From contig JAOUHJ010000005.1 in the NCBI GenBank assembly GCA_029865225.1, forward strand, positions 1 to 64,000: a stretch of DNA of 64,000 bases, written 5' to 3'. A program made the translations under genes and the position numbers. This document shows, piece after piece, positions 1,684 through 7,617 of the stretch; positions within the stretch are counted from its first letter, which is position 1, and every line of letters starts with the position of its first letter. Source of the stretch: Nitrospira sp. GTDB lineage: Bacteria > Nitrospirota > Nitrospiria > Nitrospirales > Nitrospiraceae. Below the pieces are notes generated by a model. That model was not told where the DNA came from. It did no database searches and worked only from the letters and a program-made list of their open reading frames with translations.

Positions 1684-3639
1684 ATGGCAAAAAAACGACC
1701 GACCATAAAAAGACCCACGAGAAAAACCCGGCGCCCAGCCCCTGCGATCAAAACATCCAAGCATCCCAGGCCATCCTTCGGTGAATTGGCCATTGAACCG
1801 GCAGCCGGCAAACCTATCCGCATTACCGACGTCGCGCTACGAGACGGCCATCAGTCGCTGTTGGCGACCAGGATGCGGACGGAAGATATGCTGCCCATCG
1901 CGCAAAAGCTGGATGCCGTGGGCTATTGGTCGCTGGAGGTCTGGGGTGGGGCCACGTTTGACACCTGCCTTCGCTTCCTGAAAGAAGATCCCTGGGAACG
2001 GCTCCGCGCGTTGCGCGCAGCCATGCCCAACACCAAACTTCAGATGCTCCTGCGAGGGCAAAACCTCGTTGGCTATCGGCACTACGCCGACGATGTGCTC
2101 GAGCGATTCATTGAACGCTCAGCCGCCAACGGCATCGACGTCTTCAGAGTTTTTGACGCACTCAACGACGTCCGCAATCTCGACCGAGCCGTTCGGGAAG
2201 TCAAAGCTTGCGGCAAACATGCCGAGGCTGCCATCAGTTACACCGTCAGTCCGGTTCACAATATCGATCGCTACGTCGACCTAGCCAGAAAGCTTGAGGA
2301 TCTCGGCACCGACACCTTGTGCATCAAGGATATGGCCGGCCTCCTGGCTCCGCTCGATGCATACCAGCTCGTCAGGCGTTTGAAAGCCGCAGTGGACGTG
2401 CCGATCCATCTGCATTCCCACTACACCTCAGGCATGGCCTCCATGTCGTCGCTGATGGCCATCCTGGGAGGGCTCGATATGCTTGATACGTCCATCTCTC
2501 CGCTCGCCGGAGGAACCTCCCACCCGGCGACTGAAACGTTGGTGGCGTCACTGCAGAACACGCCCTACGACACGGGGCTGGATCTCGCATCGTTCCTGCC
2601 GATCACTGAACATTTCCGAGAGGTCCGTCGAAAGTATCGTCAATTCGAGAGCGACTTCACCGGTGTCGATGCGGAAATCCTGACCTCGCAGATTCCCGGT
2701 GGGATGCTCTCCAACTTGGCAGCCCAGTTGACCGAACAGAACGCGCTGGACCGGATGAGAGAAGTCCTCGAAGAAGTCCCCCGCGTCAGAGAGGACATGG
2801 GATACCCGCCTCTGGTTACCCCGACCAGCCAAATCGTCGGTACCCAAGCGACGCTCAATGTGCTGACGGGAGAACGGTACAAGGTCATTACCAGCGAAAC
2901 GAAGAATTACTTCCTTGGACTCTACGGTAGAGCTCCCGGCCCGGTCGCCCGAGACATCATGGCACGCGCCATTGGCGATGAAGACCCGATCAAGACTCGA
3001 CCGGCGGACCAATTGGACTCGGAACTGGATACGGTCGCAAAAGATTTGCCTTCCTCGGCAACCAGCATCGAGGATCGACTCTCATTCATCCTGTTCCCGG
3101 CGATTGCCCGAGATTTTTTCGAGGCGCGGGAGAAAGGCGATCTCGTCCCCGAACCGCTCGAAGCAACCTTAGCCAAGGGCCCGGCGGTCGCGGGCGAACT
3201 TCATTTGGCTCCCGTCGAGTTCAATATCACCGTCCATGGCGAAACCTACCACGTGAAAGTCTCGGGATCAGGTCGCCAAACCGATGGGCGCAAACCCTAC
3301 TACATCAGGGTCAATGACAGGCTTCAAGAGGTCTCGCTCGAACCGATTCGGGAAATCTTGGCCGGAGTTCCTGAGGCTTCCCACGCAGGAACCGGCGCAA
3401 CACCCAAACGACCAAGGCCTTCAAAACCTGGTGACGTTGCTCCACCCATGCCCGGTCGGGTCGTCAAGATCCTCGCTGCGGTTGGCGATCAGGTCAAGGC
3501 CGGAGATCCTCTGTTGATCATCGAAGCGATGAAGATGGAAAGCCAGGTGCCGGCGCCCATCGATGGGAAGGTCTCTGCCATCCTCGCAAGCGAAGGAGAC
3601 AATGTAAAGACGGACGAAACGGTCATCCAGCTTGAGTAA
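1684..3639 (+). CDS. pycB: pyruvate carboxylase subunit B / oxaloacetate decarboxylase alpha-type carboxyltransferase
   Basis: This 651-residue protein moves the carboxyl group between biotin and pyruvate or oxaloacetate. The order is a basic 35-residue leader, a TIM-barrel carboxyltransferase (RDGHQS at 53-58, the active-site lysine candidate K215 in CIKDMAG, metal histidines in HLHSH at 242-246), a PYC_OADA domain, and a C-terminal biotinyl domain with EAMKMES and biotinylated K617. No membrane beta subunit of a sodium-pumping decarboxylase is nearby, and a biotin carboxylase precedes it. The direction is therefore probably anaplerotic oxaloacetate synthesis. The basic leader is unusual and has no recognised role. 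Confidence 0.92.
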   Translation: MAKKRPTIKRPTRKTRRPAPAIKTSKHPRPSFGELAIEPAAGKPIRITDVALRDGHQSLLATRMRTEDMLPIAQKLDAVGYWSLEVWGGATFDTCLRFLKEDPWERLRALRAAMPNTKLQMLLRGQNLVGYRHYADDVLERFIERSAANGIDVFRVFDALNDVRNLDRAVREVKACGKHAEAAISYTVSPVHNIDRYVDLARKLEDLGTDTLCIKDMAGLLAPLDAYQLVRRLKAAVDVPIHLHSHYTSGMASMSSLMAILGGLDMLDTSISPLAGGTSHPATETLVASLQNTPYDTGLDLASFLPITEHFREVRRKYRQFESDFTGVDAEILTSQIPGGMLSNLAAQLTEQNALDRMREVLEEVPRVREDMGYPPLVTPTSQIVGTQATLNVLTGERYKVITSETKNYFLGLYGRAPGPVARDIMARAIGDEDPIKTRPADQLDSELDTVAKDLPSSATSIEDRLSFILFPAIARDFFEAREKGDLVPEPLEATLAKGPAVAGELHLAPVEFNITVHGETYHVKVSGSGRQTDGRKPYYIRVNDRLQEVSLEPIREILAGVPEASHAGTGATPKRPRPSKPGDVAPPMPGRVVKILAAVGDQVKAGDPLLIIEAMKMESQVPAPIDGKVSAILASEGDNVKTDETVIQLE

Positions 3640-4624
3640 TTCTAACGTCGAGTCTGCCGCCCCTCTCTCCAAACGCGGGCATCTTGTACTGCTCGTCTTG
3701 TGGCTCTTATCATCGCTGATGACCGCCTGCGCCGCACCTCCACCAATTCCGCCATATTTTGAACCGCTAGCACCTTCCCCGACAGAACGGATCCCGATCA
3801 AGACAGTGCTCGTCCACGATCAGCAGATTGCCTATCTTGATGTCGGCACCGGCCCACCGGTGATCTTAATCCATGGCTTCGGTGGATCCATGTGGCAGTG
3901 GGAACACCAGCAACAAGCGCTGTCCCAACATTTCCGGACCGTGACGCTGGACCTACCCGGTTCCGGATTGTCCGATAAACCCGATATTGACTACCTGCCG
4001 AATGAGATGTTGGATTTCTGCCTGGGATTTATGGATGCGCTACAGATTCCTCACGCCACACTGGTCGGCAATTCAATGGGTGCCGGGTTGGCCATTGGAA
4101 TGGCGTTATCCCATCCGACTCGTGTCGACAGACTCGTGCTCATCGGCGGACTGCCGTCTCAGGTCATGGCGAAGCTCACCAGCCGTTCATTCCGGCAAGC
4201 GTTGGAAACGCGTGCCCCCTGGTGGTTAGTCTCGTTCGGTAATTGGCTGTTCGGCGGAATGGTCACCGATTCAGTCCTGAAAGAAATCGTCCACGATCAC
4301 ACACTTCTTACGCCGGCAGTTGTAGATCGGTCAAATCTGAACCGCCGGCGCCCTGGCGCCATCAAACCCATCATGGCAATGAGAAACGCTCTGCCCTCCT
4401 GGGAAACGGATTTCGCTCCGCACCTTGCAAGCATCACACGCCCGACCATGATCATCTGGGGTGAATCCGACCGGGTGTTTCCCATCGGAGTGGGTGAAGA
4501 GCTTCACCATCGCATCCGTGGATCCACATTCGTCAGAATTCCCAATGCCGGCCATATGCCACAATGGGAACGGCCGGAGCTGGTCAACCGGTCGTTGATC
4601 ACGTATATTCACACATCACCCTGA
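3632..4624 (+). CDS. alpha/beta-hydrolase lipoprotein
   Basis: This is a hydrolase of the alpha/beta fold with unknown substrate. A TTG start overlaps the end of the preceding gene by 8 bases. It was chosen because it gives a proper lipoprotein signal (hydrophobic run, then MTAC with Cys33), which later ATGs would lose. Visible motifs are the oxyanion-side HGFGG at 81-85, the nucleophile elbow GNSMG with Ser148, and the C-terminal His308 in NAGHMPQ. The overall arrangement resembles haloalkane-dehalogenase or epoxide-hydrolase relatives and esterases, but the substrate cannot be read from sequence. It is likely translationally coupled to the carboxylase gene. Confidence 0.8.
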   Translation: MSNSNVESAAPLSKRGHLVLLVLWLLSSLMTACAAPPPIPPYFEPLAPSPTERIPIKTVLVHDQQIAYLDVGTGPPVILIHGFGGSMWQWEHQQQALSQHFRTVTLDLPGSGLSDKPDIDYLPNEMLDFCLGFMDALQIPHATLVGNSMGAGLAIGMALSHPTRVDRLVLIGGLPSQVMAKLTSRSFRQALETRAPWWLVSFGNWLFGGMVTDSVLKEIVHDHTLLTPAVVDRSNLNRRRPGAIKPIMAMRNALPSWETDFAPHLASITRPTMIIWGESDRVFPIGVGEELHHRIRGSTFVRIPNAGHMPQWERPELVNRSLITYIHTSP

Positions 4625-4677: not shown

Positions 4678-5340
4678 ATGCAGACGAGATATTGGGTTTT
4701 GGGTACGGCACTGTGCCTATCGCTTGGCCTCGTAGGATGCCAGACGATGACAGGATCATCCGGACAGGCCTTCTCGTACAAGAACATGCCGGTGGCCGAC
4801 GGAACCGTCACTGCCGGAGAGGGAAACAACGTCCTGTTCAAGGGCGACCCGCTGCCGCTGAGCGGAAACGGGGTAAAGATCGGAGATAGGCTACGGGACG
4901 TCAACGTGGTACAGAACGATTTGACAGTCGTCAATATTGCGGAAACGAAAGGGGCGGGAAAGGTCCGCATCATCAACATCGTCCCTTCCCTGGATACGCC
5001 GGTCTGTGAACAGCAGACCCATCTTCTCAGTGAGAAGAACAAGGGCCTTGACAAGATGGTGGAACTTATCACGGTCAGTGTCGATACGCCCTTTGCACAG
5101 AAGCGTTTCGCGAAGGAAGCCAGCATCGGCAACGTGACGTTCCTGTCGGATTATCGTGGCGGCGATTTTGGGAAGAGCCATGGCCTCTTCTTAGAAGGTC
5201 CACACATTTTGACGAGAGCCGTGATGGTCGTCGATAAGATGAACACCATCCGCCATCTTCAAATCACACCTGAGCTTACTCAGTTGCCGGATATGGAAGA
5301 GGCCTTCCGGATCGCCCGGCGTTTGGTGACGGAGAGCTAA
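4678..5340 (+). CDS. tpx: lipid-anchored thiol peroxidase (Tpx-like), no resolving cysteine
   Basis: This is a peroxiredoxin of the Tpx family. The ATG at 4678 follows AGAAAGGAG and gives a lipoprotein signal ending LVGC (Cys21); the open frame further upstream lacks such support. The peroxidatic motif SLDTPVC places the active Cys at 110. In E. coli Tpx the resolving Cys95 sits in RFC; here the aligned stretch is RFA (Ala145), and the mature part has no other cysteine besides the lipid-bearing one. It should therefore act as a one-cysteine peroxidase on the periplasmic side of a membrane, with an unknown reductant. The protein is 220 residues against about 167 for the cytosolic enzyme, the extra being the leader and a linker. 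Confidence 0.87.
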   Translation: MQTRYWVLGTALCLSLGLVGCQTMTGSSGQAFSYKNMPVADGTVTAGEGNNVLFKGDPLPLSGNGVKIGDRLRDVNVVQNDLTVVNIAETKGAGKVRIINIVPSLDTPVCEQQTHLLSEKNKGLDKMVELITVSVDTPFAQKRFAKEASIGNVTFLSDYRGGDFGKSHGLFLEGPHILTRAVMVVDKMNTIRHLQITPELTQLPDMEEAFRIARRLVTES

Positions 5341-5360
5341 GCACTAGGACACTTGGAGTT

Positions 5361-5409
5361 GAGGTGACGGGATGATCGACTCTCACGTGCTCAAGTCGCC
5401 CGTCACCTC
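5361..5409 (+). other. 11-bp perfect inverted repeat between tpx and sthA
   Basis: GAGGTGACGGG at 5361-5371 is exactly complementary to CCCGTCACCTC at 5399-5409, with a 27-base loop. No T run follows, so it is not a standard intrinsic terminator. It sits 18 bases before the sthA start and could be an operator or an RNA structure affecting that gene. Confidence 0.5.
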
Positions 5410-5427
5410 GGCATTCCACAAACGCTG

Positions 5428-6831
5428 ATGGCTCGTTACGATCTACTCGTCATTGGAACAGGACCGGCTGGTCAGAAGGCGGCCGTTCAGGCGGCCAAGC
5501 TCGGCAAGAAGGTCGGGATCATTGAACGCAAGATGGTCCTTGGTGGTGTCTGCATCAACACCGGCACCATTCCCAGCAAATCCCTCCGTGAAGCCGTGCT
5601 CTACCTCTCAGGATTTCGCCAGCGTGGCATCTATGGTGGTACCTACCGGCTGAAAAAAACCATTACCATCGAAGACCTCGCGTTTCGCGCCAACCACGTC
5701 ATCAAAAATGAAATTCAGACCGTCCAGAATCAAATGGCCCGTAACCGGATCGACATGTTTTTTGGAACGGCCAGTTTTCTCGATCCCCATCGCCTCCACA
5801 TTCAGACGGTCCGTGGCGCCCTTGAACTGACGGCTGACTTCATCGTCATCGCTGTCGGGACAGAACCCGCTCGACCGTCCCACGTTCCCTTCGACAACCA
5901 GGCCATCATCGATACCGATGGACTCCTGACCTTGAAACGAATTCCCAAATCGATCGTCATCGTCGGAGGTGGGGTCATTGGAACTGAGTATGCGTCCATG
6001 CTCGCCGCATTGGGAATCCCCGTCACCCTCATCGACAAGCGACCGCGGCTTCTGGAGTTTGTCGATGCAGAGATCATCGATGCGCTCCAACGACAAATGA
6101 AGGAGCTCGGCGTCACGCTGTACCACGATGAAGAAGTTCTTGCGATCAAGCGCAACTGGGACAAATCCATCCAGGTCTCGTTGCGGAACAACCGGCCGCT
6201 TCGAGCATCCACCCTCATGTATGCAGTTGGGCGTGTCGGAGCCAGCCGCATACTCAACCTGGCAGGCATTGGGCTACAGCCCGATACCCGTGGACGGTTG
6301 GCCGTCAACGAACATCTCCAAACCGCGATTCCACATATCTATGCGGCCGGGGACATCATCGGATTTCCGGCGTTGGCCTCAACTTCGATGCAGCAGGGAC
6401 GCCATGCCGCGAGCCATGCATTCGGCCATTCGGATCGGACCGATACCTTGCTGCTCCCCTACGGGATCTATGCGATCCCAGAAATCTCGATGGTTGGACG
6501 AAACGAGGAAGAATTGCAACACACCCAAATTCCCTATGCAGTCGGCCGCGCACGCTATAAGGAGATCGCCAGAGGACAACTGATCGGCGATGAAAGCGGC
6601 ATGCTCAAGATCCTGTTTCATCGACATACCAGACATCTCCTGGGAGTCCATGCGATCGGAGAGGGTGCGACAGAATTGATCCACATCGGCCAAGCGGTCA
6701 TGGCGTTTCACGGTAAGATTGATTATTTCATCGACACGGTCTTCAACTATCCGACCCTCGCCGAATGTTACAAAGTGGCAGCGCTGGACGGCATGAACCG
6801 ACTGCCGAGACCCTGGATCCCGTACTTATGA
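5428..6831 (+). CDS. sthA: soluble pyridine nucleotide transhydrogenase
   Basis: This flavoprotein exchanges reducing equivalents between NADH and NADPH in the cytosol. The FAD motif GTGPAG lies near residue 10. The region that holds the redox disulfide in lipoamide dehydrogenase reads GGVCINTGT and has one cysteine only (Cys42), as in SthA. The NAD(P) motif VGGGVIGTE lies near 180, and the C-terminal FNYPTLAECYKVAALDG matches the SthA family signature. The length of 467 residues is normal. It follows the peroxidase gene in the same direction, which suggests a shared redox theme but not necessarily one transcript, since a hairpin lies between them. Confidence 0.9.
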   Translation: MARYDLLVIGTGPAGQKAAVQAAKLGKKVGIIERKMVLGGVCINTGTIPSKSLREAVLYLSGFRQRGIYGGTYRLKKTITIEDLAFRANHVIKNEIQTVQNQMARNRIDMFFGTASFLDPHRLHIQTVRGALELTADFIVIAVGTEPARPSHVPFDNQAIIDTDGLLTLKRIPKSIVIVGGGVIGTEYASMLAALGIPVTLIDKRPRLLEFVDAEIIDALQRQMKELGVTLYHDEEVLAIKRNWDKSIQVSLRNNRPLRASTLMYAVGRVGASRILNLAGIGLQPDTRGRLAVNEHLQTAIPHIYAAGDIIGFPALASTSMQQGRHAASHAFGHSDRTDTLLLPYGIYAIPEISMVGRNEEELQHTQIPYAVGRARYKEIARGQLIGDESGMLKILFHRHTRHLLGVHAIGEGATELIHIGQAVMAFHGKIDYFIDTVFNYPTLAECYKVAALDGMNRLPRPWIPYL

Positions 6832-6948: not shown

Positions 6949-7617
6949 ATGTCGTTTTCGAACCATCTGAGGAAGCTGACGGTTTCAATCTGGGAGGCCC
7001 AACTCAGCCATCCCTTTGTCGTTGCACTCGGCGACGGCACGCTACCTGAGCAAAAATTCAAGTACTATATCCTGCAAGATGCGAGGTTTCTCGGCGACCT
7101 CGCCCGTGTCTTCGCCTCCGGTATCCTCAGAGCTCCAGACTCAGACAGTGCGCTGCGTTTCGCGAAGCTCGCCGAAGAAACCATCACGGTCGAGCGAAGT
7201 CTGCATGAGAACTACGGCCAGCGATGGAATCTGACGCCCAAACAGATGAGTTCGGTCCCCATGGCTCCGACAAATTACGCCTATACGCGCCATATGTTGA
7301 CCGTCGCTGCTTCGGGTACAGCCGTGGAAGTGACGGTGGTAGCCCTCCCCTGCGCCTGGATCTACTGTGTGGTAGGACAACACTTGTTACGGAAAGGGCA
7401 CCCCGCCAAATCGCATCCGTATCGAGATTGGCTCATGCTCTATGCCTCGCCAGAATTTGCAGAGGTCCAAATTTGGATGCGGAAGAAAGTCGATCAGTGG
7501 GCCAAGACCGCCGGCAAGGACGAACTTCGTCGGATGGAGGAGTCGTTCATCATCAGCTCACGATACGAGTGGATGTTCTGGGAAATGGCATGGAACGAAG
7601 AGCAATGGCCGGTGTAA
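6949..7617 (+). CDS. tenA: TenA-family protein (thiaminase II / aminopyrimidine aminohydrolase)
   Basis: TenA proteins salvage the pyrimidine part of thiamin by hydrolysing aminopyrimidine amines. The ATG at 6949 follows GGAGG with proper spacing; an upstream start at 6907 lies inside a hairpin and lacks a ribosome site. The catalytic positions of the Bacillus enzyme are all present: Asp44 in LQDARFL, Cys135 and Tyr139 in LPCAWIY, and a C-terminal Glu207 before the last helix. The length of 222 residues fits. No other thiamin gene and no TPP riboswitch is visible nearby, so it is an orphan here. A PqqC-like relative is less likely given the conserved cysteine. Confidence 0.85.
   Translation: MSFSNHLRKLTVSIWEAQLSHPFVVALGDGTLPEQKFKYYILQDARFLGDLARVFASGILRAPDSDSALRFAKLAEETITVERSLHENYGQRWNLTPKQMSSVPMAPTNYAYTRHMLTVAASGTAVEVTVVALPCAWIYCVVGQHLLRKGHPAKSHPYRDWLMLYASPEFAEVQIWMRKKVDQWAKTAGKDELRRMEESFIISSRYEWMFWEMAWNEEQWPV

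Follow-up and report, generated by a model that had tools for sequence, protein, structure and literature searches.

The window, the whole 64,000-nucleotide stretch of Nitrospira sp. DNA analysed here, carries a run of four genes on one strand, abh, tpx, sthA and a tenA-like gene, with gaps of 53 bases between abh and tpx and 87 bases between tpx and sthA (Table 1). The tpx gene begins with an ATG at 4678, preceded by an AAAGGAG box, and its stop codon occupies 5338-5340. A sequence scan of its surroundings gave no informative signal, with one promoter-like site against 0.8 expected and three terminator-like sites, all of them on the minus strand.

Table 1. Features of the tpx locus, with coordinates in the window and the evidence for each; counts out of 125 refer to the exported one-cysteine Tpx domains described in the text.
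Feature	Coordinates	Strand	Evidence
abh, alpha/beta hydrolase with its own lipobox MTAC, directly upstream of tpx	3632..4624	+	PF00561, 126 bits
tpx, exported, predicted lipid-anchored one-cysteine thiol peroxidase, 220 aa	4678..5340	+	ORF, profile matches and alignment
Signal peptide with lipobox LVGC and predicted lipidated Cys21 (codon 4738-4740)	4678..4740	+	Sequence; conservation in 64/64 f1/f2 orthologues
PSLDTPVC motif with peroxidatic Cys110 (codon 5005-5007)	4984..5007	+	Alignment; Cys in 125/125
Ala145 codon, site of the E. coli resolving Cys95	5110..5112	+	Alignment; 119 Ala, 5 Ser and 1 Lys among 125
Arg180 codon, active-site Arg	5215..5217	+	Arg in 125/125
sthA, Si-specific NAD(P)+ transhydrogenase, downstream of tpx	5428..6831	+	NF003585, 639 bits
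tenA-like (TENA/THI-4), further downstream	6955..7617 (stretch scanned; ORF from 6907)	+	Profile scan

An earlier note on this DNA predicted that tpx encodes a lipid-anchored thiol peroxidase (Tpx) with a single catalytic cysteine and with Ala145 in the place of the resolving Cys95 of E. coli Tpx, and both the sequence and the alignment bear this out. The cysteines of the protein are C13 in the signal peptide, C21 in the lipobox and C110 in PSLDTPVC, with none besides; when the protein is aligned with E. coli Tpx (reference sequence identical to PDB 1qxh across residues 2-168), C110 stands opposite Cys61 of that protein and Ala145 opposite Cys95. The protein scores 136 bits against the NCBIfam thiol peroxidase model NF001808 (cut-off 123) and 66 bits against the Pfam family Redoxin (PF08534), and it carries the Tpx motif PS(I/L/V)DTx(V/T/I)C as well as the active-site arginine. 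The AxxR(F/W)C motif that holds the resolving cysteine of Tpx reads AQKRFA here, and we therefore assign the protein to a one-cysteine sister clade of Tpx and not to two-cysteine Tpx. Nor does it belong to the Prx6 type, as 1-cysPrx_C (PF10417) is absent from its Pfam matches. A signal peptide followed by a lipobox ending in cysteine, recognised both by pattern and by conservation, marks it as a predicted lipoprotein. An AlphaFold2 model built from a 40-sequence alignment (mean pLDDT 91.8, pTM 0.84) predicts that the protein adopts the Tpx fold, and residues 31-50, which lie N-terminal to the Tpx domain, are likewise confident in this model. The top Foldseek matches in the PDB are all Tpx (3p7x_B, TMt 0.93; 2yzh_D, 0.90; 1psq), and the structure of E. 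coli Tpx C95S (3hvx) is also among them.

Both unusual features are conserved in Nitrospirota, where the earlier note had suggested checking them. Across 64 orthologous loci (L001 and L003-L065) drawn from the window's family (f1) and from the sister family of the same order (f2), the lipobox is kept in 64/64, including L032, whose NVGC lies outside the pattern and was read by eye. At the resolving-cysteine site, the 63 loci that cover it (L065 ends before it) have Ala in 61 cases, Ser in two and Cys in none, so that all 63 carry Ala or Ser. Because the one-cysteine lipoprotein form is conserved across orthologues, chance can be excluded as its cause. A close relative with its resolving cysteine elsewhere was also sought and not found: exactly one cysteine is present in 124 of 125 exported one-cysteine domains, and two in the remaining one. 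The search of Nitrospirota matched 133 of 245 genomes at E<=1e-8, a figure that includes weak matches to other peroxiredoxins. The 14 Tpx loci read outside the window's class (L078-L091) are of cytosolic type and have the resolving cysteine, and two genomes from one family of the same class as the window (G159 and G175) hold a lipoprotein one-cysteine Tpx together with a separate two-cysteine Tpx (L066/L076 and L067/L077).

To place the protein among its relatives, we compared 208 different Tpx domains, E. coli's included, which remained after duplicates and domains shorter than 130 residues had been dropped; these domains were gathered by their resemblance to the window protein, and its relatives are over-represented among them. 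The resolving cysteine is absent from 134 of these domains, of which 131 look exported, two do not and one (L110) was left unassigned; it is present in 74, of which three look exported by the export rule. The 131 comprise the 125 domains of the main type less one that is cut at its N-terminus, plus seven, assigned by eye, that belong to a third type. Eighteen rows without the resolving cysteine were first labelled cytosolic by the export rule, most were relabelled by eye, and the counts given here use the relabelled set. Within the 125 exported one-cysteine domains, Thr107, Cys110 and Arg180 are invariant, and Pro103 (122/125) and His115 (124/125) nearly so. A lipobox was recognised in 114 of them by pattern and in one by eye, nine have a Sec-type signal only (by eye) and one is cut N-terminally. 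Asp never directly follows the lipid-bearing cysteine in the 114 lipoboxes recognised by pattern. In E. coli, lipoproteins with a residue other than Asp after this cysteine are sorted to the outer membrane; the residue thus points to an outer-membrane location, with the proviso that the rule is E. coli's and may not be that of Nitrospira.

We then reconstructed a tree of 96 rows, obtained by thinning the 208 domains at 80% identity for exported one-cysteine domains, 72% for two-cysteine domains and 95% for the others; the resolving-cysteine column was excluded from the alignment, and no root was inferred. All 49 exported rows without the resolving cysteine (42 of the main type and seven of the third) are set off from all other rows by a single branch, supported at 100/100 in the careful search, and the same branch appears in the quick search with support 100 and a stem of 0.45. 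This clade covers proteins from five phyla, and since it gathers 49 of 49 such rows, export and loss of the resolving cysteine within it would most simply trace to one event. Judged from sequence, the one-cysteine lipoprotein Tpx is a whole clade across several phyla and not one altered protein. Its markers relative to two-cysteine Tpx are His115, five residues past the catalytic Cys110 (Arg or Lys in two-cysteine Tpx), Leu117 (Phe), Thr137 (Leu) and Leu72 (Ala). When NF001808 was run on five further clade members, L141 and L138 (the N. moscoviensis orthologue) passed, and L144 (121.3), L157 (116.2) and L069 (83.6) fell below the cut-off of 123; no separate NCBIfam name for the clade appeared among the six members scanned.

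Tpx is normally a cytosolic protein with two cysteines. Some exported two-cysteine Tpx exist besides, a small group apart (L244, L247 and L248, from the Pseudomonadota sample) that forms its own clade of three rows with support 100 in the quick tree. Export as such does not, on the reading of these three sequences, require loss of the resolving cysteine. A strict coupling of the two traits was rejected on account of these exported proteins, which keep the resolving cysteine, and of two Photobacterium paralogues (L166) that lack it and have no export signal. Nor did we find support for a model in which an oxidising envelope (DsbA/VKOR) traps the CP-CR disulfide and so favours loss of CR, the resolving cysteine: a search for VKOR alone gave no match in the window's own genome and matches in 12 of 60 genomes of its family.

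The distribution of the exported one-cysteine form was followed in several samples. Among the best 80 of 587 confirmed loci in a scan of named genomes, it occurs in Nitrospira (including N. moscoviensis), Nitrospinaceae, Desulfobulbaceae and other Thermodesulfobacteriota, and further in bins labelled Myxococcota and Pseudomonadota and in two Photobacterium. The signal peptides from Nitrospinaceae and Photobacterium seem to have no lipobox, and the form there would be soluble and periplasmic. In the phylum of Desulfogranum, 70 of 148 sampled genomes matched at E<=1e-15, and the 30 loci read comprise three exported one-cysteine Tpx (G254, G292, G324) and 27 two-cysteine Tpx. The Pseudomonadota sample, in which 20 of 299 genomes pass E<=1e-22, is not a survey, as this strict cut-off drops most ordinary Tpx. 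When all matches at E<=1e-8 were collected from 23 genomes, four Nitrospinota, N. moscoviensis and G256 had one each, the exported form, and the remaining 17 had two or three. Photobacterium indicum (L166) has three neighbouring Tpx genes, one of them exported and one-cysteine; in the other two, of cytosolic type, Asn or Ile occupies the resolving site and other cysteines are present.

How does this clade relate to what has been described? With E. coli-type two-cysteine Tpx (NF001808) the window protein shares the fold, the PS(I/L/V)DTxVC motif, the active-site arginine and a score above the model's cut-off; unlike it, the window's clade is exported with a lipobox, has AQKRFA for AxxRFC and bears the markers His115, Leu117 and Thr137. 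In section 9 of PMC5302317 the Tpx group is described as bearing AxxR(F/W)C with the resolving cysteine, and PMC9144841 places E. coli Tpx with the cytoplasmic peroxidases, as one used on bulky hydroperoxides, and notes that only a few periplasmic peroxidases are known. Prx6 and other one-cysteine peroxiredoxins (e.g., LsfA) likewise have one catalytic cysteine and need an outside reductant, but they form a different subfamily, and the 1-cysPrx_C domain that the window protein lacks is carried by a separate protein of the same genome (L176). The same position has been substituted in E. coli Tpx C95S (3hvx) and, according to PMC13056558, in H. pylori Tpx C94A (9f64), but these are laboratory mutants, whereas the exported one-cysteine clade carries Ala or Ser naturally. 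Within the open-licence literature we found no description of a lipid-anchored or one-cysteine Tpx clade, and PMC11327836 mentions Nitrospira prx/tpx without detail. What emerges is a genuine and conserved variant within a known family, one that present annotation fails to distinguish: Tpx is handled as though all its members had two cysteines, and automated pipelines assign the one-cysteine clade the same name.

The genomic setting of tpx is also conserved in the 64 f1/f2 loci. The abh gene lies directly upstream in 61 and sthA downstream in 56, with a contig end cutting two of the eight misses; tenA was identified in 30 loci, and the sequence extends for more than 3000 bases downstream in 32. 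The lipobox of abh is recognised by pattern in 49 of the 61 loci, and of the remaining 12, seven show the box on a second reading, three have PGAC or MHGC by eye, L019 is cut and undecided, and L063 has none. In four of five Nitrospinota loci (L139, L140, L142 and L143, from Nitrospinaceae), the second gene upstream of the exported Tpx encodes a different esterase, also with a lipobox, and a mutS2-like gene stands between them; the only one scanned, in L140 (2181-3518), matches PF02230 with 36 bits. A simple gene caller revealed no widely recurring neighbour at the exported-Tpx loci of other groups. Since a conserved lipoprotein esterase adjoins the Tpx, one may postulate that abh and the one-cysteine Tpx form an envelope repair pair for membrane lipids, in which lipid hydroperoxides would be reduced in situ by Tpx and damaged acyl chains clipped off by the hydrolase. 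Mammalian PRDX6 unites peroxidase and acyl-chain hydrolase activities in one protein. We regard this as a tentative idea, with the balance clearly against it; were it true, catalase-free Nitrospira would depend on the pair. In L148, a locus of the same class, a glutathione-peroxidase-like gene (5359-5841) lies directly upstream of the lipoprotein one-cysteine Tpx, and an Oxidored_FMN gene is also upstream.

The window gene encodes the sole Tpx of its own genome, the second search match being 28% identical. A search for the AhpC-TSA family gave 11 matches in this genome, the window gene included; the others comprise a PrxQ-like protein (L173, named by eye), the Prx6-like L176 with 1-cysPrx_C and several TlpA-like proteins. 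Neither catalase (PF00199) nor peroxidase (PF00141) has a match in the genome, and they match in 19 and 2 of 60 family genomes, respectively. One further AhpC-TSA match is a glutathione-peroxidase-like protein with a signal-like N-terminus, encoded on contig C165 (L183, 1300-2025, minus strand); glutathione synthetase itself has no match in this genome. The genome further holds one DsbD_TM/CcdA-like protein, adjoining a TlpA/ResA-like protein with WCGPC (CxxC), on contig C44.

What we infer of the protein's location, activity, substrate and electron donor can be set out as a sequence of steps. The protein would be exported and lipid-anchored to an envelope membrane, where Cys110 would reduce peroxides (H2O2 or alkyl or lipid hydroperoxides) and become Cys-SOH. 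Without a resolving cysteine, this sulfenic acid (or a Cys110-Cys110' dimer) would be reduced directly by an envelope thioredoxin-like protein, for which the candidate is the TlpA/ResA-like protein beside CcdA on C44, itself fed by cytosolic thioredoxin. We consider it reasonably probable that the protein is an active one-cysteine Tpx of the envelope and that a separate, thioredoxin-like protein reduces its sulfenic acid, with the CcdA/TlpA-like pair as the best candidate, because this pair contains the sole DsbD_TM match of the genome and because Caulobacter ScsB-TlpA offers a precedent. According to the review PMC5403849, ScsB-TlpA-PprX of Caulobacter supplies an envelope peroxiredoxin; the likeness, with PprX compared by description only, lies in a peroxiredoxin of the envelope that probably receives its electrons by way of a membrane carrier and a TlpA-like protein. 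In pneumococcal CcdA-Etrx-MsrAB2 (PMC3914529), lipid-anchored extracytoplasmic redox proteins are likewise fed by CcdA, but that pathway ends in a methionine sulfoxide reductase and its operon is linked. Against the CcdA/TlpA pair as donor, it is distant from tpx and not linked to it, and it likely has another job in cytochrome c maturation; no linked donor gene was seen at the loci examined, where a simple gene caller was used and most neighbours are unannotated. DsbD_TM is matched in 24 of 24 genomes with exported Tpx (23 above the cut-off; in G260 and G265 weakly only), but this co-occurrence is weak because 10 of 14 control genomes match as well.

A variant of this mechanism, to which we give a low probability, would have anchored subunits form an intermolecular Cys110-Cys110' disulfide that a general envelope disulfide reductase opens. 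The crystal of E. coli Tpx C95S has such a disulfide according to the title of 3hvx, and Yersinia Tpx is a dimer according to PMC3288085, but the contact in 3hvx may be a product of crystallisation. Slightly less probable still is a one-cysteine peroxidase dependent on glutathione or another low-molecular-weight thiol. Other one-cysteine peroxiredoxins accept small reductants. Titles on ascorbate and glutaredoxin in the reference list of PMC4199769 accord with such a reading. Glutathione is unlikely as the reductant, though, because no GshB was found in the family: GSH-S_ATP (PF02955), the one glutathione-synthesis profile searched, is unmatched in 60 of 60 Nitrospiraceae genomes and matched in 9 of 14 controls. 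The earlier note had offered two alternatives, an outside thiol partner or a sensor, of which the first is retained on grounds of peroxiredoxin chemistry. The second, in which oxidised Cys110 would signal to a partner and peroxidase turnover would not be the point, draws on the membrane-bound one-cysteine form, which has no recycling cysteine of its own, but no regulator or kinase recurs alongside (the conserved neighbours being abh, sthA and tenA), the catalytic residues and the Tpx active-site motif show the conservation seen in enzymes, and the one-cysteine Tpx is the only Tpx in several genomes; we think it improbable. A non-catalytic or decaying Tpx, suggested by loss of the resolving cysteine that is a distinctive Tpx feature according to section 9 of PMC5302317, is very improbable given that all 125 of 125 sequences, drawn from several phyla, have Thr107, Cys110 and Arg180 and that the gene and its genomic place have long been conserved.

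If an active envelope enzyme with a separate reductant is the correct reading, a natural and mostly lipid-anchored one-cysteine branch of Tpx would mean that the resolving step has been handed to another envelope protein. Nitrospira defluvii and Nitrospina gracilis are reported, in PMC8115632 and PMC3578206, to have neither catalase nor superoxide dismutase. The one-cysteine Tpx would be a concrete part-answer to how catalase-free nitrite oxidisers handle peroxide, and probably guards the cell envelope with a separate electron donor.

Nitrospirales also have a second type of exported Tpx without the resolving cysteine (L069-L073, L210 and L212), with the motif VPQLNTPVC. This type has a recurring neighbourhood of its own, composed of epimerase-like, membrane protein, PDZ-like and photolyase-like genes as read by eye at L071.
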